Shown here piece after piece: positions 7,294 to 44,750 of a stretch of DNA of 56,585 nucleotides (positions are counted from its first letter, which is position 1; every line of letters starts with the position of its first letter). Source of the stretch: a virus; the IMG/VR virus record IMGVR_UViG_3300044568_002602, positions 1 through 56,585 of that record, one strand, 5' to 3'. The position numbers and the translations under genes are program-made. Below the pieces are notes generated by a model. That model saw nothing but the letters and a program-made list of their open reading frames with translations. It had not been told where the DNA came from and did not search any database.

Positions 7294-7344
7294 ATATAGC
7301 AGGATTTCATCATTTTGCCTACAGGGTCGTATATTTATGTTTAT

Positions 7345-8142
7345 ATGAAAACAAATTATGGAAACCCAGAGTCAATAAATAAAATTTGCGAATGGACTGG
7401 TAAATCTTTCACGGTTGATTGGAAGCACAGAAATAAAAGATTCATAGACACAAAAGCCATGTATGCTTGGAGAAAATCGCAAAATCACGAAATTGTAAAT
7501 TGCCTAAATTGCAATAAACCGTTTGATAGATATAAAAGAATACTACATCCAAGGTCTGGAAAATTGCAGCAATATTGTTCAAATGAATGTAACAGAAGTT
7601 CAAAAGAAAAGAAAGAAAAACTTAAAGTTTGGATAAATGATAATAATCCTATGAACGATCCAATTTCGGTTGAAAAGATATCAAAAACCAAACTGACAAA
7701 ATACGGAAATTATAAATACAACAACTCAGAAAAAGCTGCAAATACTTGTATGAAAAAATACGGAACCGCGTGCTATTTTGATAGCCCTTCTGCTATATTA
7801 TCAAACGGAAAACGCATATCAAAGTTTCAAAAACAAACTTATGATCTTGTTTTATTAGAATATCCAGACGCACTGTTGGAAGAATATCTAAAAGATGCAA
7901 GATGTTCGGTGGATATTTATATACCATCGTTAAAAAAAGCAATAGAATGCTACGGTGATTATTGGCATTGCAATCCATCAAAATGTCAGCCGAATTATTA
8001 TAATAAGTCGTTGCGTATGACAGCAAAAGAAAAATGGGACAAAGATGCCATTAAAACAAATAAGTTGATGTTGGCCGGTTATGGTGTTGAAATAGTTTGG
8101 GAAAACTCAAAGAAAAAACTCGCTCATTCAACAAAATCATGA
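7345..8142 (+). CDS. VSR-type homing endonuclease
   Basis: A zinc-finger-like block (CLNCNKPFDRY ... QYCSNEC) is followed by short repeats of the TKLTKYGNYKYNNSEKA / KKYGTACYFDSP kind, as in phage homing endonucleases. The C-terminal nuclease core resembles very-short-patch-repair (VSR) enzymes: CSVDIYIPSLKKAIECYGDYWH, then KWDKDAIKTNKLMLAGYGVEIVWE. The ATG at 7345 is preferred; an in-frame TTG at 7315 would add 10 residues, and neither has a Shine-Dalgarno. It is shorter than the two related genes at 10250 and 12462 and lacks their C-terminal YADRRF region. It sits directly behind the sheath terminator, a typical selfish insertion site. Confidence 0.75.
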   Translation: MKTNYGNPESINKICEWTGKSFTVDWKHRNKRFIDTKAMYAWRKSQNHEIVNCLNCNKPFDRYKRILHPRSGKLQQYCSNECNRSSKEKKEKLKVWINDNNPMNDPISVEKISKTKLTKYGNYKYNNSEKAANTCMKKYGTACYFDSPSAILSNGKRISKFQKQTYDLVLLEYPDALLEEYLKDARCSVDIYIPSLKKAIECYGDYWHCNPSKCQPNYYNKSLRMTAKEKWDKDAIKTNKLMLAGYGVEIVWENSKKKLAHSTKS

Positions 8143-8154: not shown

Positions 8155-8715
8155 ATGCATATATTGTTAAAAGATCTATTGAAGGAAGAAGAAGAAAAAA
8201 GTGCTCTGCAAGTTCAATTATACTGCGACATGGATGGAGTTTTGGTTGATATGGACGCTGGATTTAAGGAACTTTCAGATGGATTGGCTCCAAAAGAATA
8301 TGAAGAAAAGAACGGAAAGAGTTCATTTTGGAAATTAATTGCAAGCAAGCCAAATTTTTGGATTGATTTGAAACCGACTCCAGATGCTAAAATTCTTTGG
8401 GATTTTATCAAAGAGAACTTCAAGAACCCACTGCCGGTTATTTTGAGTGCAGGTCAAGGCAGCAGCATTGTTCAACAAAAAACTGCATGGATTCGCAAGC
8501 ATATTGATCCAACTGTGAAAGTTATTATTGCGTCTGCTGGTTCAAAGAAACCGGAATATATTCTAAAAACGACCGGTCGTGTTACTCACGTGTTGCTAGA
8601 TGATACTCAAAAGAACATAAATGTTTGGGACAATGTTGCATTGCATCGTATTGCTATTCATCACACCGACGCTTCAAGTAGTATCAAAAAATTACAACCA
8701 TTTGTGATCGAATGA
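8155..8715 (+). CDS. HAD-superfamily phosphatase / 5'(3')-deoxyribonucleotidase-like protein with N-terminal tag
   Basis: The 186-residue protein has HAD motif I, YCDMDGVLVDMD (about residues 23-34; nucleophile Asp25, acid Asp27). Motif II-like LSAGQG is near residue 98, a Lys-containing motif III is around SAGSKKPEYIL, and motif IV is LLDDTQKNINVW. This layout fits phage 5'-nucleotidase-like HAD enzymes, which dephosphorylate nucleotides. The first 15 residues (MHILLKDLLKEEEEK) precede the HAD fold and resemble the (L/I)-x-E leader on other proteins here, so the enzyme may be head-targeted. It overlaps the next gene by 4 bases (ATGA), implying translational coupling. Confidence 0.75.
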   Translation: MHILLKDLLKEEEEKSALQVQLYCDMDGVLVDMDAGFKELSDGLAPKEYEEKNGKSSFWKLIASKPNFWIDLKPTPDAKILWDFIKENFKNPLPVILSAGQGSSIVQQKTAWIRKHIDPTVKVIIASAGSKKPEYILKTTGRVTHVLLDDTQKNINVWDNVALHRIAIHHTDASSSIKKLQPFVIE

Positions 8716-9422
8716 AATATCCTTTATACAGAGATACTCTTTGTCCAAAACTTTGGAACATCAATGAAGATGGTGCCAAACTTGATAATATAGTGCGCAA
8801 AGGATTATATCAGATTGCAAAAGATTTTGTAAACAATCTCAAGACAGAAAATAATATAGATATAAAGATACATGATATTGTTATCATTGGCAGCATCACC
8901 AATTATAATTGGACAGATTATAGTGATATTGACTTGCATGTTGTCACAGATTTTAAAGATTTAGATATGACAGCAGATGATGCTCAAACATTATTTGATG
9001 CTATAAAAGTGGGTTGGAACAACAAGCACAACATAACCATGAAAGGTCATGATGTTGAAATATATGTTCAAGACACAGCGCATGTACCTACTTCAGCCAG
9101 TTCATATAGTGTGTTGAAAAATGATTGGATTCAAGAACCTGTTAAAGAAAGTCCAACTTTCAACAAAGAACTTATAAAAAAGAAGTATAAAGAATACAAG
9201 AAGAAAATAACAACACTATTGTCAAAACATGATGAAACTGCTCTAAAGAGTCTGTTGGACAAGCTTTATAAGTATCGTCAATCTGGGTTGGACAAAGGTG
9301 GCGAGTTGAGTGAAGAAAATATAGTATTCAAGATTATTCGTGCATATGGATATTTGGATAAAATCAAAGATAATATAGCCAAGAACTATGATAAAAAAAT
9401 GAGCGTCAAAGAAATTTCATAA
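8712..9422 (+). CDS. Nucleotidyltransferase-fold protein
   Basis: The 236-residue protein contains the Pol-beta-type nucleotidyltransferase signature: IVIIGSITNYNWTDYSDIDL (about residues 57-76), with GS followed by SDIDLHVV supplying the two catalytic Asp residues. A third acidic candidate is in HDVEIYVQD. Close relatives are widespread in T4-like marine phages (N-terminal MYRDxLCPxxW, then YSVLxxxW as here), but their substrate is unknown. The C-terminal half is helical and Lys-rich. It is coupled to the HAD gene by a 4-base overlap, so the pair may act on one substrate. It is followed by a terminator. Confidence 0.75.
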   Translation: MKYPLYRDTLCPKLWNINEDGAKLDNIVRKGLYQIAKDFVNNLKTENNIDIKIHDIVIIGSITNYNWTDYSDIDLHVVTDFKDLDMTADDAQTLFDAIKVGWNNKHNITMKGHDVEIYVQDTAHVPTSASSYSVLKNDWIQEPVKESPTFNKELIKKKYKEYKKKITTLLSKHDETALKSLLDKLYKYRQSGLDKGGELSEENIVFKIIRAYGYLDKIKDNIAKNYDKKMSVKEIS

Positions 9423-10249: not shown

Positions 10250-11773
10250 TCAAACTGTTTTGGGTTTGTAAATCCATTTGGTATGACCGCAGTCCCATAT
10301 TCTATCAAATCCATTAACTTTCATATTTTCCCATTCAGACAATGACTCATCAAATTTTTGTAATTTTTTCTTTAGTTTGGATTTTTGAAACATCTGGCGA
10401 TTGAATAATGTGCTAAAATCCGGCGATACATAATGATATCCTTGTGCAGTATTTCCAGCAAACTCCATGCCAAGTCTATTATATATATCTCCTGTAAAAA
10501 ATCGTCTATCAGAATAACTTACCACGCTATTTGGTTTATAATCTTCTAAAAATACACTGAATAATTTACTAGCACCGCCAAGTATTCGTGTATTGAGTGA
10601 ATTGCAAAATCTTGATATTTCCCATTCTATTTTCTTATCAAATCTACTCTTACAAAATGTCATAATACTCACAAGAGAATCTTTATAGTATAATCCATAA
10701 GCAACACTGCAACGATCATCACCTTGTATATGACAATTATTCAAGAAATCTCGCTTGCTGTTTTTATCAACTTTTTTGATTTCACAGTCTCTGCCATATA
10801 TTTTAGCCATTGAACCGCCCAAACTTTGGCGAATAATAGATTTAACAATATTTGTTTTATGCTTCCATTCATTCTCAAATATATGAATCAATCGTATATT
10901 TTTCTCTGCACATTTTGTTGTTTTATCCAAATGATAGTTTTTACTCATTCTTGTTTGACCTTCTCTGTGCCAATATAAACCATTATATTCAATAGCAAAG
11001 TTTAATTCTGGTATATAAAAATCAAGTTCTTTGCCTTCTAATATAGTTCGGTTATGTCTTGACACAGTTTTTCCATTTAGTTCAGACACCAAAAACTCGT
11101 GCAATGATGTTTCGGCAGTGATTTTCTTTTCAGGATGACACAATTCACAAAATACGTCTGTTGGAACATATACAGTAGAATCAAATCCGCCATTGCATTT
11201 CTTGCACTTAAAGTTATATTTCTTGGAAAAATGATAACCATCATATTCTTCTGGTTGTATCAACCATTCTATTTTTTGATCATTAAAATATACACAAAGT
11301 TTTTCATAATGATTTTCTTGTTTTACTTTACTTCTGCGATCTATAACTTCACGAGATTTACCAGGATTATCCACTCCATATTTTTTCATCCAACCATCTA
11401 TTATCTTTTCTCGTAATGGACTGTTTTTCTGTAAAATATTTTCAACTCCATAGTTTATCATGTTGGTTCGCTTGGACTTGTCGTTGATAGATTTTACTTG
11501 TTGAGCAAACTCTTTGCCATACTTTGCTTTCATACTAATCTTGAGGTTTTCTACAACACTTGCTGTCTGCATAGGATGTTCCACACCATATTTTAGCAAC
11601 GAAGTTTGCTTTTGAGATTGCCTCATTTTTGATAAAACCTCTGGGTCTTTGTTGGCACATGACTTACAGCAATATTTTTGTATATTTCGTTTGACCCATT
11701 TCACTTGAAAATCCATTTGGCATGTCTTGCAAAGCATGTTTGTGTGTATTGGATTTTTCTTGGGTCTTGCCAT
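10250..11773 (-). CDS. VSR-type homing endonuclease (507 aa)
   Basis: An N-terminal CxxC zinc finger (CKTCQMDF ... YCCKSCAN) is followed by four or five repeats of the KYGVEHPMQ type (LLKYGVEHPMQT, AKYGKEFAQQ, INYGVENILQ, KKYGVDNPGK), probably DNA-binding. A second zinc finger (CKKCNGGF ... CELCHPEK) precedes the nuclease core LDFYIPELNFAIEYNGLYWH, then RLIHIFENEWKHK. The C-terminal region has SYSDRRFFTGDIYNRLGM and MKVNGFDRIWDCGHTKW. It is a paralogue of the gene at 12462 but on the opposite strand. It stands between sheath and tube genes, which are adjacent in T4. Confidence 0.8.
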   Translation of the reverse strand: MARPKKNPIHTNMLCKTCQMDFQVKWVKRNIQKYCCKSCANKDPEVLSKMRQSQKQTSLLKYGVEHPMQTASVVENLKISMKAKYGKEFAQQVKSINDKSKRTNMINYGVENILQKNSPLREKIIDGWMKKYGVDNPGKSREVIDRRSKVKQENHYEKLCVYFNDQKIEWLIQPEEYDGYHFSKKYNFKCKKCNGGFDSTVYVPTDVFCELCHPEKKITAETSLHEFLVSELNGKTVSRHNRTILEGKELDFYIPELNFAIEYNGLYWHREGQTRMSKNYHLDKTTKCAEKNIRLIHIFENEWKHKTNIVKSIIRQSLGGSMAKIYGRDCEIKKVDKNSKRDFLNNCHIQGDDRCSVAYGLYYKDSLVSIMTFCKSRFDKKIEWEISRFCNSLNTRILGGASKLFSVFLEDYKPNSVVSYSDRRFFTGDIYNRLGMEFAGNTAQGYHYVSPDFSTLFNRQMFQKSKLKKKLQKFDESLSEWENMKVNGFDRIWDCGHTKWIYKPKTV

Positions 11774-12461: not shown

Positions 12462-14168
12462 ATGAACAAAAATATAGAAATTGACAATGATAGCAAAAAT
12501 GACCATACTATATGTGTGCAAAAAAATTTAAAATTTTGGCAAGAAACAAATTGCAAAATTTGCAACACGTCGTTCTGGTCGCTGATAAAGCGTGATCAAA
12601 AAACTTGTTCTGCTAAATGCAGTGGCATATATGTGGCAAGAAATCCAACGAGAATTGCCAAGATTAAAAAGACAAAGTTGGAAAAGTATGGTAACGAAAC
12701 ATATGTAAATTCGGAAAAAGCCAAAGTTACTTGTTTAAGTAGATATGGAGTAGATAATGCATCAAAAAGTGAACAAGTATTAAAAAAGATACAACAAACA
12801 AATCAAGAAAAGTTTGGCGTAGACTGGGCATTTCAGTCAAATGAGGTGATAGAAAAAACAAAATCGCACAATATTAAATTGTATGGAGTGGAACATGTAT
12901 CTCAACGAAGTGATGTAAAAGATAAAAAGAAAAAAACTTGCTTGATTAATAATGGTGTAGAAAATCCATTTCAATCGTCTGATATCAGGAAAAAGATAAA
13001 GCAAACAAATCTTGATAAATATGGTGCGGAGCATCCAAGTAAAATGTTGCACGTCAAAGAAGCAAAACGTAAAAAATTTATTGACGCTTTTTACGATATA
13101 TTGCTGAATGAACACAAATTAAATGTTGGGTATATTCCGTTATTTACAAAGGAAGAATATATCAACACAGATAGAATAAATTTGTATAAATTTCAATGCA
13201 AGTCATGCAATGATATATTTTCAGACCATATAGACGGTGGGCATCTTCCTCGCTGCTTAAAGTGCAATCCGATAGAATATGAAAAAACATCTATTGCAGA
13301 AAAAGAAATAGTAGAGTATATAAAATCTATCACCAACGAATCTATAGTTGAAAATAGTAAAGATATTTTACCATCTGGGTTGGAGCTTGATATATACATT
13401 CCATCAAAGAAAATCGCTATTGAATTTAACGGATTATATTGGCATTCAGAGATGGCTGGAAAATCAAAAAAATATCATTTGCTCAAAACTGAAGAGTGTG
13501 AGTATAATGATATACATCTAATTCATATATTTGAGGACGAGTGGAAGAACAAAAAAGAAATAGTAAAACAAAAATTGCGTTCTCATTTTATATATGAAAA
13601 AAGAATAGGTGCGCGAGAATTGATAATATCAGAAATATCAAATGTTGAAAAAGATAAATTTCTTGATGTACATCATATACAAGGAAAAGATATATCATCT
13701 GTGAGATATGGTGCTTTTTATAATAAAGAATTGGTGGCAGTTATTACATTTGGAAAAGAGCGAGCTGCACTTGGAATCAAAAACCCCAACAAGGATACAT
13801 ACGAATTGGTTAGATTTGCAACCTCTGTTTCTATAGTTGGAATTGTTTCAAAGTTTTTAAAAGTGTTTATATCCGAACATAACCCTAAAAAAATAATAAG
13901 TTATGCAGATCGTAGGTTCACATATATACAAAAAAATATATACAGTTCAATAGGAATGAAATTGGCGCATATATCTCCTCCAAATTATTGGTATTTTAAA
14001 AATGGTTATTATAATAAATATCATAGATTTGGGTTCAGAAAACAGGTACTAAAATCAAAATTACCTAAATTTGATGCTATTTTAACAGAATGGCAGAATA
14101 TGCAAAATAATGGATATAATCGTATTTGGGACTGTGGTAATCTCAAATACGAGATGAATCTGTTATAA
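12462..14168 (+). CDS. VSR-type homing endonuclease (568 aa)
   Basis: It has the same architecture as the gene at 10250. A zinc finger (CKICNTSF ... TCSAKCSG) is followed by at least six KYGxxxxxxS repeats (EKYGNETYVNSEKA, SRYGVDNASKSEQ, EKFGVDWAFQSNE, KLYGVEHVSQRSD, INNGVENPFQSSD, DKYGAEHPSKMLH). A second finger (CKSCNDIF ... CLKCNP) precedes the nuclease core LELDIYIPSKKIAIEFNGLYWH. The C-terminus has SYADRRFTYIQKNIYSSIGM and NGYNRIWDCG. Its ATG abuts the T run of the tube terminator, so it should be transcribed only by read-through. This is a common way for phages to keep homing genes low. Confidence 0.82.
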   Translation: MNKNIEIDNDSKNDHTICVQKNLKFWQETNCKICNTSFWSLIKRDQKTCSAKCSGIYVARNPTRIAKIKKTKLEKYGNETYVNSEKAKVTCLSRYGVDNASKSEQVLKKIQQTNQEKFGVDWAFQSNEVIEKTKSHNIKLYGVEHVSQRSDVKDKKKKTCLINNGVENPFQSSDIRKKIKQTNLDKYGAEHPSKMLHVKEAKRKKFIDAFYDILLNEHKLNVGYIPLFTKEEYINTDRINLYKFQCKSCNDIFSDHIDGGHLPRCLKCNPIEYEKTSIAEKEIVEYIKSITNESIVENSKDILPSGLELDIYIPSKKIAIEFNGLYWHSEMAGKSKKYHLLKTEECEYNDIHLIHIFEDEWKNKKEIVKQKLRSHFIYEKRIGARELIISEISNVEKDKFLDVHHIQGKDISSVRYGAFYNKELVAVITFGKERAALGIKNPNKDTYELVRFATSVSIVGIVSKFLKVFISEHNPKKIISYADRRFTYIQKNIYSSIGMKLAHISPPNYWYFKNGYYNKYHRFGFRKQVLKSKLPKFDAILTEWQNMQNNGYNRIWDCGNLKYEMNLL

Positions 14169-14339: not shown

Positions 14340-14705
14340 ATGAATAAAGCTCAATTGAAACAATTAGTAAGACAAATAGTAAAAGAAGCAATTGGATTGG
14401 GAGTTGCCGAAACTAATATACAGGAATCTGCTCCACCAAATTTTCCAGCTGCTCTTGAAAAGAAACTATTGGCACAGTATAAAGATGTTCCACAAAAAGC
14501 TTATGCTACAATGTGGAAGATGCACAATGCTAAAAACGAAGGTAATCAGCGTGTTTGTGAAATGTGGGCTGCTTGGGAAAATAAGGGAATGAATGAAGAA
14601 CATGATGAAACAGACATGAATAATCCGGAAGAAAAGCGTGAAGTTGAATTGGCCAAAAAAGCAAAAGCTGCTGCTGAAGAAATATTAAAAATGCACGGCA
14701 AATGA
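14340..14705 (+). CDS. Hypothetical protein with capsid-targeting-like N-terminus (121 aa)
   Basis: The leader MNKAQLKQLVRQIVKEA is an amphipathic helix ending in V-K-E-A, like the peptides on neighbouring genes. The body has an aromatic/Ala segment (YATMWKMHNAKNEGN, VCEMWAAWENKGM) and an acidic, helical C-terminus. No enzyme motif is seen. It overlaps the next gene by 4 bases (ATGA), so the two are coupled. A head-core or internal-protein role is inferred only from the leader. Confidence 0.6.
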   Translation: MNKAQLKQLVRQIVKEAIGLGVAETNIQESAPPNFPAALEKKLLAQYKDVPQKAYATMWKMHNAKNEGNQRVCEMWAAWENKGMNEEHDETDMNNPEEKREVELAKKAKAAAEEILKMHGK

Positions 14706-15022
14706 AAAAATCTGAACTAAGAATTATCATCAACGAAATTGTTCAGCGTAAGCTGAAAGAAATCGGTGAAGTTGGTGCATCTCAATTTGGAGTATCTGCT
14801 CCGGAATCTGGTATGACTGATTCAGACAAAAAATCATTGGCAACATATCAAGCCGCTTTGGATAAAATCACAAATGATATTCGCAAAATTGACGCTGATA
14901 TAGTCAAACTGCATGCACCGGTTCAAAGAAAAATAGAAGGACTTGAACGTAAAAAGGCAAGTTTGTCAAAGAAGCAAGGTCAAGTCATTGACAGAATAAA
15001 TTCCATCAAAGACAAACAATAA
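14702..15022 (+). CDS. Coiled-coil protein with capsid-targeting-like N-terminus (106 aa)
   Basis: The leader MKKSELRIIINEIVQR contains I-N-E at residues 10-12. The remainder is a Lys/Asp-rich coiled coil (ALDKITNDIRKIDADIVKLH, then KIEGLERKKASLSKKQGQV). Long helical, charged sequence behind such a leader resembles prohead scaffold-core or internal proteins. It is coupled to the previous gene by overlap and lies 3 bases before the next. Confidence 0.6.
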   Translation: MKKSELRIIINEIVQRKLKEIGEVGASQFGVSAPESGMTDSDKKSLATYQAALDKITNDIRKIDADIVKLHAPVQRKIEGLERKKASLSKKQGQVIDRINSIKDKQ

Positions 15023-15025
15023 TGT

Positions 15026-16414
15026 ATGAAAAAGTCTGAACTAAAGAGTTTGATAAAACTGATAGTCACTGAAAGTCATGATCTGTATTTGGGTGAAGAA
15101 TCAACTCATAAAGTAAAATCCGGAGACAGAGTTCGTTTGATAAACAAAGGTGGATACAACAACTATCAAGGAACTGTAACAAAAATTCAGATGCATGGAA
15201 ATTCTGGTCCTTGGGCTGACATAAAATGGGATATGCCACATCATCCATGTACAACTCCGATGGAAACCAAGCATCTGGAAGTTGTTATGAATGAAGGTGA
15301 ACATCCATTGCCACAAGACACACATGCCACTGATTTGAATGAGTTGGTTGACAATTCTGTTATGATACAGACTATCAAAGGACCATATAAATTTTGGGCA
15401 GATGAAGATCGTGAAGAAGATAATATCAAGTTGTTTCATTATGTCAAAGGACCGGATGGAAAAGAACATGACGTGAACATCAGTCCATATGAAATTAACT
15501 GGAAATCCCCAGCTATGATTGAAAAAGTAAAGAAGTGGATTGAATCTGATATGCCAAATACAAAAATCAGCGAAAATAATTTACAAGAAAACAAAACTAC
15601 CATGAAAAAGTCTGAACTAAAAGCACTGTTAAAAGTTATTATTCAAGAAGTTGTTGCTGTAAAGCAAAAACGTATTGACGAAACCAAAGGATTGTCTGGA
15701 TTCAAAAAATCCAAAGATTCAAATGATCACACAGAAAATGTTGCTTCATCAAAAGATCTTACGGGCAAGGGACCAGTAGAAAAACAAGAAGGTAAGAAGC
15801 TTCCTGTTGTCAAGAAGCCAGCAACTCCACAAAAAGTCGGCAGCATAAAAGAAGAAATTTTAGAAATGATCCGCGAAGCTATTGATGAATCGGATATTGA
15901 AGAAATTCGTGTTAAAGGTGCTGTGGGCAGCAAGTTCAAGGCTCAAGACGCAAGTTCTCCAACTGGTTGGGTAGTCAAGGGACACAAGACCATTCCAGAT
16001 GGCACACCAACCGAAGCTCCAAAAGGACCATATATTCCAAAAGGAATTGCTGGTATGGGTCGTCCAAAGAAAGTTGCACCAGTTTCAAGTACCGGTGGAA
16101 CTGATTTTGATACAGCAACTCGTGGCGCAATCGAAAATATTTTGACCGCCGCTCCAAACACAACAGACAACGATATCATGCAACAATTGTCTTCAAGTGC
16201 AAGCGAAGAAGAAGTATCTCTAAATCTAGATCCAGCGTTTGTCAAGAAAACAGCAGATGCATTGAGAAAAGAACTTTCTGCTGACACAGACAATCAACTA
16301 GACGACGCTCCAGAAAGCGATCTTGCTGCAATGGCATCATCGGAAGAAAAAAGAAAAGCTGCACAGCGCGCATTTATGATCAAGAAACTACAAGCAAGAC
16401 GAGCAATCAAATAA
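15026..16414 (+). CDS. Tagged multidomain protein with internal second tag (462 aa)
   Basis: The leader is MKKSELKSLIKLIVTES. Residues about 30-90 look like an SH3/KOW-type beta barrel (VKSGDRVRLINKGGYNNYQG ... WADIKWD). At residue 193 (base 15602) the leader recurs almost exactly (MKKSELKALLKVIIQEV), preceded by a Glu-rich linker. The C-terminal part is acidic, disordered and Ala/Ser-rich, ending in basic KLQARRAIK. The internal copy could be a processing site separating two mature proteins, the scar of a gene fusion, or an internal start (no Shine-Dalgarno visible). Enzymatic function is not recognised. Confidence 0.6.
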   Translation: MKKSELKSLIKLIVTESHDLYLGEESTHKVKSGDRVRLINKGGYNNYQGTVTKIQMHGNSGPWADIKWDMPHHPCTTPMETKHLEVVMNEGEHPLPQDTHATDLNELVDNSVMIQTIKGPYKFWADEDREEDNIKLFHYVKGPDGKEHDVNISPYEINWKSPAMIEKVKKWIESDMPNTKISENNLQENKTTMKKSELKALLKVIIQEVVAVKQKRIDETKGLSGFKKSKDSNDHTENVASSKDLTGKGPVEKQEGKKLPVVKKPATPQKVGSIKEEILEMIREAIDESDIEEIRVKGAVGSKFKAQDASSPTGWVVKGHKTIPDGTPTEAPKGPYIPKGIAGMGRPKKVAPVSSTGGTDFDTATRGAIENILTAAPNTTDNDIMQQLSSSASEEEVSLNLDPAFVKKTADALRKELSADTDNQLDDAPESDLAAMASSEEKRKAAQRAFMIKKLQARRAIK

Positions 16415-16418
16415 CATC

Positions 16419-17402
16419 ATGAAAAAACTAGTCATATCATTTCTGGCTCTGTTGCTGTTGACAGGATGTCCAAGTATACCAAAAATGCCCAGTTTTGGAA
16501 AGAAACTAGAAAAATCCGAACAAATAGTAAAAGAACCAGAAGTGAATGTGGCGGCAGTTGTTGCAGCGCAGTCAGCAAAAGAAGCAATGGAAAGGGCAGA
16601 AATAGCGGAAAAAAAAGCAGCAGATGACAAAAAAAATATGGAGGCTGAATATGCCAAGTTAAAGGCAGAAACACAAAAGGCATATAATGATCTTCGCGAA
16701 AAAGACCTTGAGAATTTCGCTAAGATATCAGAAATAAACTATGGTGTATATCATGTAACTCAAGAAAAGAAAAAAGTAGACATTAATACCACCATTGCAC
16801 ATTTACGTTCAAAAGAAATAATGATGCGCACGGATATTCTAACTGACGCTAAAAAAGCAGAAATTCAAAAAGAAGTTGCTGAAGAAAAAATCATTAAAGA
16901 ATCTCTTCAAAAAAGTATAGATGGATTGTATATAAAATACAAAGCAACAATTGAATTGGCTGTGAATCAAAAAGCTCAATTGGATGATGCTGAAGCAATA
17001 ATTGTTCAAAAAGAAAAAGAAAAGTCGCAACTAAAAGAATCCAATCGTATTGCAATTGAAAAGATAGAAGCTGAAAAGAAAATAGAAGTTGATCGCATTC
17101 GTGCTGATGCAGTAGATCAAGTTCGTTTATTAAAAGAAGCACAACAACAAGAACTTATGGTATGGTTGGTTAGATTGTTGGGTGGTATTGGAATATTGTT
17201 TGTGATTCTCGGCGTGTTATTCAAGAGCTTCAATATGATTTTTTCTGGCATCACATTTCTGGGTCTTGCATATATGGCAACAACAATTCCTATGTGGATC
17301 GTTGGAGCAATAGCGGCTGGTTCTATATTATTGATGGGTGTTGTTCAATTGATTGCTGCAAATAAAAAGAAAGCAGCGGATGAAGATAAGAAAAAGATAT
17401 AA
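16419..17402 (+). CDS. Lipoprotein with long coiled coil and C-terminal membrane helices (candidate u-spanin)
   Basis: MKKLVISFLALLLLTGC is a lipoprotein signal peptide with lipobox LTGC (Cys17). Residues about 35-240 are a long Ala/Glu/Lys coiled coil (AAQSAKEAMERAEIAEKKAA, VEVDRIRADA-like heptads). The last ~85 residues hold about three hydrophobic segments (WLVRLLGGIGILFVILGVLF; MIFSGITFLGLAYMA; IVGAIAAGSILLMGVVQLI) and end in a Lys-rich tail. An outer-membrane lipid anchor plus C-terminal inner-membrane anchor joined by a periplasmic coil is the topology of unimolecular spanins. Those fuse the membranes at lysis, but known ones have one membrane helix and are much shorter. It is 5 bases from the preceding gene. 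Confidence 0.6.
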   Translation: MKKLVISFLALLLLTGCPSIPKMPSFGKKLEKSEQIVKEPEVNVAAVVAAQSAKEAMERAEIAEKKAADDKKNMEAEYAKLKAETQKAYNDLREKDLENFAKISEINYGVYHVTQEKKKVDINTTIAHLRSKEIMMRTDILTDAKKAEIQKEVAEEKIIKESLQKSIDGLYIKYKATIELAVNQKAQLDDAEAIIVQKEKEKSQLKESNRIAIEKIEAEKKIEVDRIRADAVDQVRLLKEAQQQELMVWLVRLLGGIGILFVILGVLFKSFNMIFSGITFLGLAYMATTIPMWIVGAIAAGSILLMGVVQLIAANKKKAADEDKKKI

Positions 17403-27788: not shown

Positions 27789-29156
27789 GTGCAAATTGTA
27801 GAAACAGATTTTGAATTGCAACTATTGTTGTCTCATATCACATCAGATATTATGGTGATAGATGCAGTGTGTATGGACGCAGAAAAGCATATTGCAAACA
27901 ATCAAGTTAGTGTTTTGTTCTTTTACTTTTTGGTATCAAAATCATATTGGTGCGTGCCAATCAAACACAATGAAGGCTCGACGCCGCCAGAATCTTTGTA
28001 TAAAATCAAAGAAGCATTGAAAATCAGTATTCGCAACAAGTTTGTTATAGACAAAAAGAATATGGTGCAATTGATGGGCAAAGATTATGATTTTGTGGAT
28101 GTTAATTTGATAAAGTATTTGAGCGACGGTAAAATTGATGATGTTGATTATAGCACAAATGCTCACAAGTTTGTTGAAAATAATTTCAGAAATGTACCAG
28201 ATGTAAACATGTGTGTGCCATTGCTAAAGCATGCTCGCTCGTTCATGGAAAAAATAAAAGGTATTGATGAACTAGACACAAGTATTATAAAAGAAGATGG
28301 ATTTAAGTTTGTAAACAATACCACCACAAACTGTTTTGCAGAACTTGAAGCCAATGGCATATGCGTGAATGAGGATTTTACTGAAGAATTTGGTAATGAA
28401 CAAACCAAGCATGTAAAAAACAATCTGGTATATACACAATATAACTTGTTGACTTCAACAGGCAGACCAAGCAATAGATTTGCAAGTGTAAATTATGCTG
28501 CTTTAAATAAAAGCGATGATAGCAGAACATGTTTTGTTAGCAGACATGGCAATGATGGTATGCTTGTTATGATGGATTATAATGCTTTTCATCCTCGTCT
28601 TATTGCTCATTTGGTCAATTTTCATATGGAAACAAACGAAAATCCATATGCTTATCTATCCAAGTATTATTTTAATAAGAAAGCGGCAAATGAAGAAGAT
28701 ATTGCAGTAGCCAAAGCATATACCTTTCCACAGATTTATGGAGGGTTTGATAAGAAATGGCTACACATACCATACTTTGCCAAGATTCAAGAGTATATTG
28801 ACCATAGATGGAAGTTCTATAATGAGAATGGATATATTGAAACTCCCAAATATAAAAGAAAAATCAAGACTTGTCATATTCCACAAGCCAATCCAAGCAA
28901 ATTGTTTAATTATATATTACAAGCATTTGAAACCGAGATGGCAGTTGATGTTTTAGGTGATCTATTAGAGTACCTAAAAAACAAGAAAAGTAAGACTGTG
29001 CTATATACATATGACAGCATATTGTTTGATATGCACAAAGATGACAAGATGGATACTATAAAAAGACTAAAAAGTATCATGGAACGCGACAAGTTTCCGG
29101 TCAAAGTATATATTGGTAAAAATTACAAAGATATGAAGCATATTGATCTTGCTTGA
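27789..29156 (+). CDS. Compact family-A-like DNA polymerase
   Basis: The 455-residue protein keeps the family A palm layout. TSTGRPSNRF (222-231) corresponds to TATGRLSS. Motif A is DYNAFHPRLIAHL (catalytic Asp263; the usual Glu of DYSQIELR is His). Motif B is reduced to KAYTFPQIYGG (Lys309, Tyr317-Gly318). Motif C is LYTYDSILFD (Asp409 in place of HDE). The N-terminal ~150 residues resemble a 3'-5' exonuclease fold (FELQLLLSHI ... IMVIDAVCMD) but lack the DxE catalytic pair. The start is GTG at 27789, with no better in-frame start after the previous stop. It lies between baseplate genes and head-tag genes, away from the replication cluster. Confidence 0.7.
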   Translation: MQIVETDFELQLLLSHITSDIMVIDAVCMDAEKHIANNQVSVLFFYFLVSKSYWCVPIKHNEGSTPPESLYKIKEALKISIRNKFVIDKKNMVQLMGKDYDFVDVNLIKYLSDGKIDDVDYSTNAHKFVENNFRNVPDVNMCVPLLKHARSFMEKIKGIDELDTSIIKEDGFKFVNNTTTNCFAELEANGICVNEDFTEEFGNEQTKHVKNNLVYTQYNLLTSTGRPSNRFASVNYAALNKSDDSRTCFVSRHGNDGMLVMMDYNAFHPRLIAHLVNFHMETNENPYAYLSKYYFNKKAANEEDIAVAKAYTFPQIYGGFDKKWLHIPYFAKIQEYIDHRWKFYNENGYIETPKYKRKIKTCHIPQANPSKLFNYILQAFETEMAVDVLGDLLEYLKNKKSKTVLYTYDSILFDMHKDDKMDTIKRLKSIMERDKFPVKVYIGKNYKDMKHIDLA

Positions 29157-40397: not shown

Positions 40398-41102
40398 ATG
40401 AACAACAGAGATCTTATCAAAAAAGCCATCAAAAAATTAGTATTACAAGAAATTGCCAACAATCAATTTGGTGTACAAGTACACGTAGATAATGCCGACA
40501 AAAAAGGTTCTGATGCCTTGGGCAAAGCAATGGGTAAAAATAATGCTGGCAACATCATTGGAACTGGCAAAACTGCTGGATGTGATGACAATCAAAAGGT
40601 TGAGTTGAGCAAGAACGCAGAAGACAACTATGATGTTGTATCAGTTACCAATGAGTCAGAACGCAAGATTGCTCGTGGTGTTTCACTTGAAGCTGCTATG
40701 GAACTTGTAAAGAAACATGCAGGTGATTCTGAAAAGACATATGTTCAAAAAGCATATGACAAAAGTCTAAAAGGATTTGGAAAGAAACCAGCCAAGGTTG
40801 ATGAGAAAAAAGAAAATGATACTATGGATGATGCTGATGAAGAATTGCAGATTGATATTGCAGATGACAATACTGAAAAAGCAGATGTTAAAGCAGACAA
40901 AGAAAATGGTCCAATCAACAAAGATGTATCTGCATCAATGGGTGGAGAAATGGTAGATAAGATTGAAAAGATTATTGATCGTATCTTAAAGAACAAAGCT
41001 GATGCGAAAACAGCTCACTTAAAAACGGACAAAGATATGGAAAGTTCAGACAAGCTTACCACAAAACTAAAAGACACTCCTGCTCTCAAAGAAAAGAAGT
41101 AA
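40398..41102 (+). CDS. Tagged acidic/helical protein (234 aa)
   Basis: The leader MNNRDLIKKAIKKLVLQEIA contains L-Q-E at residues 16-18. The body is highly charged (SLEAAMELVKKHAGDSEKTY, an Asp/Glu-rich stretch about residues 140-170, and EMVDKIEKIIDRILKNKADA) and lacks enzyme motifs. The composition resembles scaffold-core or internal head proteins. It is 6 bases ahead of the next gene. Confidence 0.6.
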   Translation: MNNRDLIKKAIKKLVLQEIANNQFGVQVHVDNADKKGSDALGKAMGKNNAGNIIGTGKTAGCDDNQKVELSKNAEDNYDVVSVTNESERKIARGVSLEAAMELVKKHAGDSEKTYVQKAYDKSLKGFGKKPAKVDEKKENDTMDDADEELQIDIADDNTEKADVKADKENGPINKDVSASMGGEMVDKIEKIIDRILKNKADAKTAHLKTDKDMESSDKLTTKLKDTPALKEKK

Positions 41103-41108
41103 TAATTT

Positions 41109-42248
41109 ATGAACAAACGTGAATTACAATACGAAAAAAATAAAATTCATGAAGGCATAGCTGATTCATTATTTAGTGAATTGACCAATTTTCAGAATTT
41201 ATCCGCGCTTGTTAAATCGGTTGCATACGGTATGCCCATAGCACTGTTGGTTGGATTTTTTCCACAAATACTAAACAGTTTTATAACAGATATGCCCCAA
41301 TTTTTTGCCGACAAAAAGTTTGCAAAAGAATTTCAAAAATATTGCACATCTCGTGCGGAAGAATTAAAAAAAACACCAGATATACAAAATGCTATTAGAA
41401 AAGGTAATACCAAAGAGCTAATTGCGGCAATAAAAAAGAACATGTCTTCTAAAGATGAGAAGATTCATAGAGAAGCACTGCATAGAGGTTTGGGAAAAAG
41501 ACAAAGTGATATTGATCCACTTAAATACACCGGTGAGCAAGATTCCGGTTATCGTGATGATATTATTGCTCAAAATCTGAAAGGAACCGAAGATCACGAG
41601 GGTGGAATATATCCAAAGCTGGCAAAAATATTAAAAAGTAAGAAAAAACCATCCACGTTGAATGCGAAAGAAAAGCCAGAAGAATTTCTAGCAGGATCTA
41701 TTCCGGCGATGGCAGAATCTAAAAACACAATGAAAAAATCAGAACTCAAAGCATTGATACAAGAAGTTGTAGAAGAAGTTTCTAAGATGGAAAATCCATG
41801 TTGGAAAGGCTATAAAGCATATGGCACAAAGAACAAGGGTGGTAAAGAAGTTCCAAATTGTGTGCCTGTAAATGAAGAAGAAGAAGTTGAAGAAATATAT
41901 GAATCAACCAAATGGGATATTATTCCAGAAGGCGATGAACATACATGTGAAGGTGATGAATTTTATGAAATGTATGGTGATATGAATGCTGATGCTACAT
42001 TAGAAGAAGCAGAATATCGTGGTCGCAAAGTAAAACTTGGCAAGCCAATGCGTGGCGATGTAAAAAAATTCAAAGTGTTTGTTAAGAACCCAAAGACAGG
42101 TAATGTAAAGAAAGTAAATTTTGGTGATCCAAACATGCGTATCAAAAAGAGCAATCCAAAGCGTAGAAAGAGTTTCAGAGCAAGACATCATTGCGAAAAT
42201 CCAGGTCCAAGAACAAAAGCAAGATATTGGTCGTGCAGAGCTTGGTAA
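41109..42248 (+). CDS. Multidomain structural-type protein with internal tag and basic C-terminal domain (379 aa)
   Basis: The N-terminal ~100 residues include a hydrophobic segment (SVAYGMPIALLVGFFPQIL) and a helical region. At residue 208 (base 41730) the leader recurs: MKKSELKALIQEVVEEV. Next come ENPCWKGYKAYGTKNKGGKE followed by VPNCVP, an acidic stretch, and a basic C-terminal domain (YRGRKVKLGKPMRGDVKKFK, FGDPNMRIKKSNPKRRKSFR, then HHCENPGPRTKARYWSCRAW). These last two modules recur in proteins of T4-like marine phages. The mix suggests a fusion of two head-associated proteins. A GIY-YIG gene follows directly. Confidence 0.6.
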   Translation: MNKRELQYEKNKIHEGIADSLFSELTNFQNLSALVKSVAYGMPIALLVGFFPQILNSFITDMPQFFADKKFAKEFQKYCTSRAEELKKTPDIQNAIRKGNTKELIAAIKKNMSSKDEKIHREALHRGLGKRQSDIDPLKYTGEQDSGYRDDIIAQNLKGTEDHEGGIYPKLAKILKSKKKPSTLNAKEKPEEFLAGSIPAMAESKNTMKKSELKALIQEVVEEVSKMENPCWKGYKAYGTKNKGGKEVPNCVPVNEEEEVEEIYESTKWDIIPEGDEHTCEGDEFYEMYGDMNADATLEEAEYRGRKVKLGKPMRGDVKKFKVFVKNPKTGNVKKVNFGDPNMRIKKSNPKRRKSFRARHHCENPGPRTKARYWSCRAW

Positions 42249-42958: not shown

Positions 42959-43258
42959 ATGAGTAAAACAAAGAAATATTCAATCAACGAAGTCAAAGAC
43001 ATCATTGACACTTGCTATTCACTCAAGCCCGATAAGCTATTTATGGGCGAATTGAAATGGAAGTATCTTGTACGCAGTGCTTTGCGTGGCAAAAACATTC
43101 TGTTGCTTGGACCGGCTGGTCAAGGCAAAACATTGGCATGTCGATGTCTGGCCGAAGCCTTGAAGGAAGAGGTGACAGAAGAGGTGACGGAAGAACAACT
43201 AAATTTGCTTAAAAACGATCCTAACGTACATATTATAAAAACGGAAATAGTAGAATAA
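42959..43258 (+). CDS. CobS/MoxR-like AAA+ ATPase, N-terminal fragment
   Basis: The 99-residue product contains KWKYLVRSALRGKNILLLGP, then AGQGKTLACRCLAEALK, a Walker A (GPAGQGKT) in the MoxR/CobS style. After LAEALK the sequence changes to an unrelated acidic tail (EEVTEEVTEEQLNLL) and stops. In intact relatives this point continues directly into a strand like RPLFVVNLGSTQDAR, which is found at 44016 in a different frame. The gene is therefore split by the homing endonuclease insertion. Whether the fragment works in trans, or is rejoined by splicing, is unknown. Confidence 0.8.
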   Translation: MSKTKKYSINEVKDIIDTCYSLKPDKLFMGELKWKYLVRSALRGKNILLLGPAGQGKTLACRCLAEALKEEVTEEVTEEQLNLLKNDPNVHIIKTEIVE

Positions 43259-43297
43259 TAGCGTGGAATATCCTACCAACTAATACTTATTAGTAGT

Positions 43298-44017
43298 ATG
43301 ATAATATATAAAACCATAAATACTCTAAATCAACGTTATTACATCGGAAAAGACGCAGCCAATAATCTAAACTACTATGGCTCGGGGAGGGCGATAAAGG
43401 CGGCAATCAAAAAATACGGAAAGAAAAACTTTACAAAACAAACAATAGAAGTAGTGGGTGGAACCGATTTGGGAAAACTTTTGGAGAGAGAGATATACTG
43501 GATAGACAAATATGATGCCATAAATGACAAAAAATCATATAATATACAAAGAGATAGCGGTTTGCGTCCAAAGGTTACGACGAAAGAAGAAACAAGAAAA
43601 AAGATTAGTGCAGCCGTGAGGATGGCGTATGAAACAAACGAAGAATACAGAAAGAAAATAACAGAGCACAACCAAGGAGAAACAAATCCAATGTTCGGAA
43701 GAACTCAGTCCGAATATCAACGAAAAAGAGTGAAAGACGCCAACACAGGAAAAGTTTATTCCGAAGAAACCCGCAAGAAGATAAGTGAGGCAAGAATGGG
43801 AACGTCGTTTCTAACAGAAGAAGGAAAGAAAAATATAGGAGAGGCAACCAAAGAAAGATGGGCGAAATATAGAGAACAAAAAATAAAAAAGTATGGAATA
43901 AAAGTTCCACTCACAAAAGAAGAAATAAAGAAAAAACAATCCGATGCAGCAAAAAAAAGATGGGAAAAATATAGAAATGAAAAACAAAAAATACAAAGTA
44001 ACTTACAACAGAACTAA
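43298..44017 (+). CDS. GIY-YIG homing endonuclease inserted in the AAA+ gene
   Basis: The 239-residue protein has MIIYKTINTLNQRYYIGKDA and YYGSGRAIKAAIKKYGKKNF with the helix LEREIYWIDKY. NUMOD3-type DNA-binding repeats follow (NPMFGRTQSEYQRK, YSEETRKKISEARMG). The usual catalytic Arg after YIG is Lys here, so activity may be altered. The Lys-rich C-terminus overlaps the start of the downstream ATPase fragment by 41 bases. No group I intron core (P, Q, R, S elements) was recognised in the flanks. Confidence 0.85.
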   Translation: MIIYKTINTLNQRYYIGKDAANNLNYYGSGRAIKAAIKKYGKKNFTKQTIEVVGGTDLGKLLEREIYWIDKYDAINDKKSYNIQRDSGLRPKVTTKEETRKKISAAVRMAYETNEEYRKKITEHNQGETNPMFGRTQSEYQRKRVKDANTGKVYSEETRKKISEARMGTSFLTEEGKKNIGEATKERWAKYREQKIKKYGIKVPLTKEEIKKKQSDAAKKRWEKYRNEKQKIQSNLQQN

Positions 44018-44750
44018 ACCATTATTTGTGGTAAATCTCGGAAGCACCCAAGATGCTCGTGCCACGATTATAGGAAATACCCAGTTGTCCAAAGAAACCG
44101 GAACATTCTTTCAAGAATCCCCGTTTGTAAAAGCCATTTCTACCACCGGATCAATAATCATTCTGGATGAATTGAGTCGAGCCAACCACGACGCCGTGAA
44201 TATATTGATGCCCGTCCTCGACAATCAAAGATATTTGCGATTAGATGAGTGGGGTGGAAAGGTCGTCAAGGTCGCGGACGGAGTGTGTTTCATCGCTACG
44301 GCAAACATTGGCAATGATTATACTGCCACACGAGTCATGGACAAAGCTTTGACTGATCGTTTCACAGTTAAGATTGAAGTTGATATTCTTTCTTCTGAAG
44401 AAGAATTGAAGTTGATAAAGGTGGTTTGTCCTGATGCTGATATGAATCTCATGGACAAGATTTCACAAATTGCTGCTACAACTCGTGAGTTTACAAAGCA
44501 AGGAAAGTTGAGTCGCTTTGTTTCTACTCGTTCTGTAGTAGAAATGGCTGAACTCACTGTTGATGGATTTGGTTTGGTAGAGTTGGCCGAAATGGTGATT
44601 TACCCAGACTATCCAGACGATGGTGGTTTGGACAGTGAACGCACAATGGTCAAACAAGTTGTACAAAAACATGTTCCAGTCAAATCCGACCCACTGAACA
44701 AAGTGTTCAACTCAAACAACAATAACAAGGACGATTTGCCCCCGTTCTGA
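43977..44750 (+). CDS. CobS/MoxR-like AAA+ ATPase, C-terminal fragment
   Basis: From about base 44016 this frame reads RTKPLFVVNLGSTQDARATI, then GNTQLSKETGTFFQESPFVK, Walker B IIILDELSRANHDAVNILMP, the sensor region VCFIATANIGNDYTATRVMD, and an arginine-finger region RFTVKIEV. This is the remainder of the MoxR/CobS ATPase missing from the fragment at 42959. The start is taken as the ATG at 43977 (or 43944), inside the endonuclease gene. The first ~19 residues are non-homologous. TGATG couples it to the VWA gene. Confidence 0.8.
   Translation: MKNKKYKVTYNRTKPLFVVNLGSTQDARATIIGNTQLSKETGTFFQESPFVKAISTTGSIIILDELSRANHDAVNILMPVLDNQRYLRLDEWGGKVVKVADGVCFIATANIGNDYTATRVMDKALTDRFTVKIEVDILSSEEELKLIKVVCPDADMNLMDKISQIAATTREFTKQGKLSRFVSTRSVVEMAELTVDGFGLVELAEMVIYPDYPDDGGLDSERTMVKQVVQKHVPVKSDPLNKVFNSNNNNKDDLPPF

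Follow-up and report, generated by a model that had tools for sequence, protein, structure and literature searches.

A shared leader on modular precursor proteins of uncultured T4-like phages, probably a capsid-targeting tag with predicted gp21-type cut sites

Why should phage genes for otherwise unrelated proteins begin with one and the same short peptide, and what could such a peptide do for the virus? The question is raised by the IMG/VR virus record IMGVR_UViG_3300044568_002602, of which positions 1 to 56,585 were analysed; this whole stretch is referred to as the window, and its genes are named by their start positions. The 56.6 kb come from a T4-like virus of bacteria, in which T4-like tail and replication genes were located by family matches:

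4231, tail sheath (family match)
11902, tail tube (family match)
17482, baseplate hub (family match)
33182, UvsX (family match)

According to the gene content of the fragment, the head genes lie outside the window. No tRNA genes were found in the 56.6 kb, and there were zero matches to Rfam families. When the window was searched at the DNA level against phage records, no close match was obtained; the best isolate relative, judged by the tape-measure protein, is the Microcystis phage Mel-JY01. Among isolates there was a match neither to the 15026 protein nor to the bare 20-aa leader. A syntenic close relative is the 297 kb contig G002, in which the leader genes and their neighbours are found in the same order as in the window, with roughly 56-97 % identity over the matched segments.

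Several other features were recorded in the window. The long ORF at its left end (25-1302, with VAAAVLRVQTVQ repeats) is an off-frame reading; frame 3 of this region gives a collagen-like Gly-rich repeat and is likely to encode a tail-fibre protein. Repeated KYGV(D/E)NP-type motifs occur in three ORFs (7315-8142, 10250-11773 on the minus strand, and 12462-14168); the 12462 ORF matches PHROG homing endonuclease families (E 2e-123), and the 7315 and 10250 ORFs are similar by eye. The tail tube gene is flanked by the 12462 and 10250 ORFs, the former of which lies just upstream of the leader genes. A CobS/MoxR-like ATPase gene (42959-44750) is present in two ORFs (42959-43258 and 43944-44750), being split by a GIY-YIG homing endonuclease-like ORF at 43298, and no intron family scored above the Rfam cut-off in this split gene. 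Of a phage DNA polymerase family (phrog_17), the 27789-29156 ORF matches the C-terminal part only (positions 958-1237 of 1445). Directly downstream of the leader gene cluster is the gene of a putative lipoprotein (16419-17402), which starts with a lipobox-like sequence (LLLLTGCPS) and has hydrophobic helices further on; its identity to the G002 counterpart is 88 % over most of the length. The start contexts of 14702, 15026 and many leader genes of relatives are A-rich, with no clear Shine-Dalgarno sequence. Start contexts lacking a Shine-Dalgarno sequence are common among Bacteroidota genes, and those seen here are a possible hint at the host.

The first-pass annotation had listed seven genes (8155, 14340, 14702, 15026, 29220, 30807 and 40398) whose N-terminal peptides reach an (L/I/V)xE motif within residues 11-18, and all seven starts and peptides are present as quoted. 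The bare rule shows nothing when taken alone, since it was satisfied by 11 of the 51 plausible genes of the window, in comparison to about 6.9 expected by chance from internal windows of similar length. What is shared by 14340, 14702 and 15026 is a true leader, MKKSELKxLIxxIVxE. A position matrix built from the IMG/VR pattern hits described below scored 20-53 at five copies in the window (14340, 14702, 15026, 15602 and 41730), and no score above 12 was seen in about 1.2 Mb of shuffled ORFs. Two of these five copies are internal and in frame, 15602 in the 15026 ORF and 41730 in the 41109 ORF, and both had been overlooked in the earlier reading. The leaders and the sites associated with them are as follows:

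8155..8187, plus strand, short, different leader MHILLKDLLKE on a deoxyribonucleotidase-like protein
14340..14426, plus strand, leader and linker of the 14340 protein, MNKAQLKQLVRQIVKEAIGLGVAETNIQE (matrix score 20.6)
14702..14761, plus strand, leader of the 14702 protein, MKKSELRIIINEIVQRKLKE (matrix score 30.3; predicted cut after E20)
15026..15073, plus strand, leader of the 15026 protein, MKKSELKSLIKLIVTE (matrix score 41.7; predicted cut after E16)
15581..15589, plus strand, predicted cut site L186-Q-E188 of the 15026 ORF, a short way upstream of its internal leader
15602..15682, plus strand, internal in-frame leader and linker of the 15026 ORF, MKKSELKALLKVIIQEVVAVKQKRIDE (matrix score 40.5)
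40398..40451, plus strand, probable divergent leader, MNNRDLIKKAIKKLVLQE (below the matrix threshold)
41709..41717, plus strand, possible cut site M-A-E, ahead of the internal leader in the 41109 ORF
41730..41777, plus strand, internal in-frame leader of the 41109 ORF, MKKSELKALIQEVVEE, followed by a CWKGY module (matrix score 52.8)
42000..42008, plus strand, predicted cut site in the 41109 ORF, L-E-E300, before its YRGRKV module
42009..42245, plus strand, YRGRKV module (phrog_7595, PHROG match), predicted mature product of the 41109 ORF

For the 14340 protein the predicted cut falls after E29, and possibly there is one after E16 as well; behind the internal leader at 15602 it is predicted after RIDE, before TKGLSGFKK. 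The body that follows this internal leader is a separate leader gene in other phages, and in G002 the equivalent of the 15026 leader stands directly upstream of the sequence that forms the second part of the protein in the window. The NNLQE sequence of the L186-Q-E188 site is kept in G002 and in other relatives. With these internal leader copies the picture shifts from tagged single proteins to modular precursors.

The remaining four genes of the list differed in their outcome. The 40398 N-terminus, which is identical in G002 and still leader-like in a distant homologue (G009), is probably a divergent copy of the leader. The 8155 leader is by its sequence unrelated to the MKKSELK consensus and belongs to another type, M[HQNP][IM]LLK[DN][LI]L[KQ]E, which about a dozen homologues share while the linker that follows varies in length and sequence; its body, described earlier as HAD-like, matched a 5'-3' deoxyribonucleotidase family (phrog_2643, E 2e-19). 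We dropped 29220 and 30807 because the Glu is lost in homologues (LLQDW; IISDA; LLLSVC) and because the peptide is continuous with the body, the homology running through into it with no leader boundary. In addition, a nuclease-like body had been mentioned, and 29220, the sole candidate for this remark, was supported by none of Pfam, PHROGs and NCBIfam. The comparisons given below lend good support to the proposal of a prohead-core leader that is removed by a gp21-type protease cutting after (L/I)xE. The first idea was correct in kind, but part of its member list was wrong. The nucleotidyltransferase-like protein at 8712-9422 has 236 aa in the window and is longer in G002 (19879 onwards), where a HAD-like part is followed by a degenerate internal leader and then by a module; this module has its own MKKSELK gene elsewhere (L007, L046).

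Beyond the window, one degenerate DNA pattern retrieved 110 stretches of viral contigs from IMG/VR, whereas a near-reversed control pattern, which was slightly stricter than an exact reversal, retrieved 0. After the removal of near duplicates, 164 leader copies were counted before about 70 unrelated body families, and G002 carries 13 leaders. The leader is N-terminal and conserved independently of the protein body. Column statistics gave M-K-K-S-E-L-K-x-L-I-(R/K)-E-(I/V)-(V/I)-x-E, in which position 8 is free and position 16 is E in 142 of 167 copies. Family searches returned no function for most of the bodies. Proteins of the GP88 family (PF17338) bear the leader in relatives (L029 5525, L014 4336 on the minus strand, and G009 68361), the last of these genes being located just downstream of gp23. 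A literature search found no paper containing the string MKKSELK. Mel-JY01 has Peptidase_S77 and is devoid of an MKKSELK-type leader, which implies that the leader is not universal.

We consider it quite probable that MKKSELKxLIxxIVxE is a capsid-targeting leader of the T4 kind and that the modular precursors bearing it are cut by gp21. According to this model, the leader, a short helix, would recruit the precursor into the scaffold core of the growing prohead, and a gp21-like (Peptidase_S77) prohead protease would cut after (L/I/V)-x-E and so remove the leader. In composite ORFs, of which 15026 and 41109 are examples, the protease would separate the modules as well. Small mature proteins (the YRGRKV module, the GLSGFKK module and, in relatives, GP88-like proteins) would stay in the head with the DNA, and the deoxyribonucleotidase-like enzyme with its other leader would be kept there too. 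Docking of the helix to the core, cleavage, packaging, ejection and the function of the cargo are the parts that we infer. As a leader and a cut site would make any body deliverable, bodies could be freely swapped, inserted and fused. The leader was predicted as a helix in AlphaFold models; the mean pLDDT was 53.5 for the 15026 precursor and 42.1 for the 41109 precursor, and owing to these low values only the leader helices and the loose linkers of the models are suggestive.

In T4, targeting by the capsid-targeting sequence (CTS), transfer of the CTS to foreign proteins and cutting by gp21 are established (PMC9958956; PMC3012670), and the internal proteins of T-even phages are described as diverse defence proteins in which only the CTS is conserved (PMC3012670). 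As with the CTS of the T4 internal proteins, Alt, gp23 and gp24 and their gp21 processing, a leader of 10-20 aa stands at the N-terminus of diverse proteins, [LI]xE precedes the mature part, and Peptidase_S77 and Gp23 belong to the same families. The differences are equally clear. The MKKSELK-type leader shows no homology to the T4 CTS, its consensus MKKSELKQLIREVVEE differing in both sequence and length from the T4 signal of roughly 10 residues, and the short T4-type leader pattern had no match in the window or in G002. Moreover, about 70 bodies carry the leader in this sample in comparison to a few in T4, there are leader copies inside ORFs, and precursors made of several modules have sites at every edge. 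Judged from sequence, the leader thus works like the CTS but is not the T4 CTS. In phage P1, the N-terminal signal of DarB, fewer than 30 residues long, takes a reporter into the capsid, and the Dar proteins yielded no consensus (PMC9024508), whereas here a strong consensus is common to many proteins. In the giant phage SPN3US, mass spectra proved that N-terminal propeptides of head and ejection proteins are removed by a prohead protease cutting after Glu, and the packaged proteins enter the cell (PMC10052503). The arrangement predicted here from sequence is similar in that an N-terminal propeptide would be cut after Glu; SPN3US, however, belongs to another phage lineage, most of its propeptides have 111-254 aa, and they share no short leader.

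A gp21-like protease gene is present in G002, where Peptidase_S77 (T4 gp21) is found at 275840 and Gp23 at 280648. The leader contigs that strongly match the major capsid protein, 13 in number with G002 among them, all have this gene. Among the 38 leader contigs, 13 had S77 and the same 13 had the strong Gp23 match; in three more the Gp23 match was short or weak, and the remaining contigs are mostly fragments. When contigs of at least 80 kb were considered, S77 was detected in 8 of 9 leader contigs and in 4 of 7 random contigs, which is not a significant difference. Leader clusters were located within 3 kb of the gp21-gp23 block in 10 of 28 cases in comparison to 2.9 expected (p 5e-5), and this was seen in 8 of 9 genomes. 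In G007 three consecutive leader genes, and in G026 one, are located directly upstream of gp21, the position occupied by genes 67 and 68 in T4. The capsid protein of the leader phages has [IL]xE|[AG] at the cleavage position of T4 gp23, which is LTE65|A in T4 itself.

This neighbourhood could also mean that the leader marks scaffold-core proteins (gp67/gp68/gp22-like) which are cut to peptides and expelled, so that the same proteolysis would have a different outcome. Several leader genes at the gp67/gp68 position are indeed short and highly charged (G007, G026, G001, G004), and T4 gp67, gp68 and gp22 are digested by gp21 (PMC9958956). However, many bodies are enzyme-like or are compact conserved modules (deoxyribonucleotidase, GP88) that have the sites at their edges and not inside, and most leader genes are found away from the head block. 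We therefore regard this explanation as unlikely for the leader in general, while some of the leader proteins adjoining gp21 are likely to be scaffold parts that are digested rather than cargo. Between gp21 and gp23 of G004, a leader protein (116324) consists of tandem repeats, GLTAAQEKLPEPLKKAIL and GNAFGAAV, each opened by (V/I)EE|G; it is possibly a repeated core or cargo protein.

If capsid-targeted precursors are processed by gp21, conserved bodies are expected to have cut sites exactly at their edges, with a linker that is free to drift. The following counts are strong yet share ancestry in part and do not represent independent trials. In the GLSGF family, whose body forms the end of the 15026 ORF, [LIV]xE stands directly before the body in each of the 17 distinct leader-linkers, although these range from 16 to 28 aa and have seven different middle residues in the motif. 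The same holds for the 14340 family, in which 15/15 distinct leader-linkers of 20-35 aa end with [LIM]xE directly before the body, and RK[LIM]xE is present in 9/9 relatives of the 14702 family, the G002 homologue having an extra module of about 60 aa, ending with IQE, exactly at the cut point. Among 54 distinct upstream contexts of the YRGRKV module, which are otherwise unrelated to each other, 52 have exactly [LIV]xE|A at the module edge; the WSxKYK module is directly preceded by [LIVM]xE in 19 of 21 contexts, and the CWxGY modules by [LIVM]xE within 8 aa in 27 of 27. Of 23 internal leaders, 12 have a cut-site motif in the 12 aa upstream (5.1 expected), and unselected homology breakpoints have one nearby in 105 of 183 (47 expected). 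For the HDETDM anchor a site lies within 8 aa in 8 of 11 contexts, its place not being fixed, and for the ICEGEGC anchor a site was found in only 3 of 10. The motifs at module boundaries agree with the specificity expected of gp21.

The YRGRKV module, for which no relative was found in the PDB, could also be compared between isolates with and without the protease, some of the twelve being closely related, so that the effective sample is smaller than twelve. In all eight phages that lack Peptidase_S77 (Aegir, Kolga, CRP-901, CRP-3 and four HTVC 'P' phages) the module makes up an entire protein, which starts with MA, whereas in all four S77 phages (HTVC008M, C48C1, immuto and Melnitz) it forms the end of a longer protein, and in three of these four LEE|A, LTE|A or LDE|G directly precedes it. 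Exceptions at the edge are Melnitz (MES|E), S-SRM01 (where the bead starts the protein) and Bellamy (FQE). Cutting at the edge of the embedded module would thus release what other phages make directly. Composite proteins annotated only as hypothetical in the T4-like cyanophages and pelagiphages S-SM2, C48C1 and HTVC008M contain the same beads (WSxKYK, CWxGY, YxGKxV), several of which start after [LI]xE; on beads of this kind S-SM2 (MKTLKQFLKE) and C48C1 (MKKFKQYIDE) have short T4-type leaders, not MKKSELK. The cytidylyltransferase T4-GC190 has been detected in S-SM1 virions (PMC3037559). Its homologue in Melnitz has a CTS-like start, and we left the virion detection unused because the Syn1 homologue has none.

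The leader could instead be a docking or oligomerisation helix destined for another place (the tail, the replication site or a host target), in which case (L/I/V)xE would reflect helix composition and shared ancestry. The predicted helicity of the leader would fit such a function, an E-rich leader conforms to (L/I/V)xE at positions 12 and 16 by its build, and the sequence behind leaders is in general only slightly (1.37-fold) enriched in [LIV]xE. On the other hand, the sites at the far edge of the linker are kept while linker length and middle residue vary, sites recur before modules whose upstream sequences are unrelated, and in protease-less phages the free module starts at the same point, which makes this function quite improbable. 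It is very improbable that the shared 5' end is a DNA-level cassette (a start region or recombination hot spot) copied between genes with a functionless peptide, as upstream AT-rich stretches repeated between some neighbouring leader genes and bodies clearly shuffled behind a constant start might indicate, since internal in-frame copies keep the peptide though no start is needed there, and conservation of the peptide contrasts with variation at position 8 and in the upstream DNA.

Returning to the capsid-targeting leader, a broader statement, to which we give about an even chance, is that many uncultured T4-like phages make their head cargo as polyprotein-like strings of small interchangeable modules, each string being addressed by at least one capsid-targeting leader and cut to separate mature proteins by gp21 in the prohead, the same modules being made as free single proteins in protease-less phages. 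If this is true, modular strings would represent a general and rapidly evolving means by which aquatic phages deliver injected proteins, and a trick of a few T4 proteins would be widened into a large modular system. Hypothetical genes make up much of the genomes of large aquatic phages. A readable grammar of tag and cut site would allow packaged, and probably injected, proteins to be predicted from sequence only, together with their mature ends and the starts of modules in composite ORFs. In addition, the MKKSELK leader would be a new candidate for loading foreign proteins into phage heads, and the question of what T4-like phages inject would become testable at scale.
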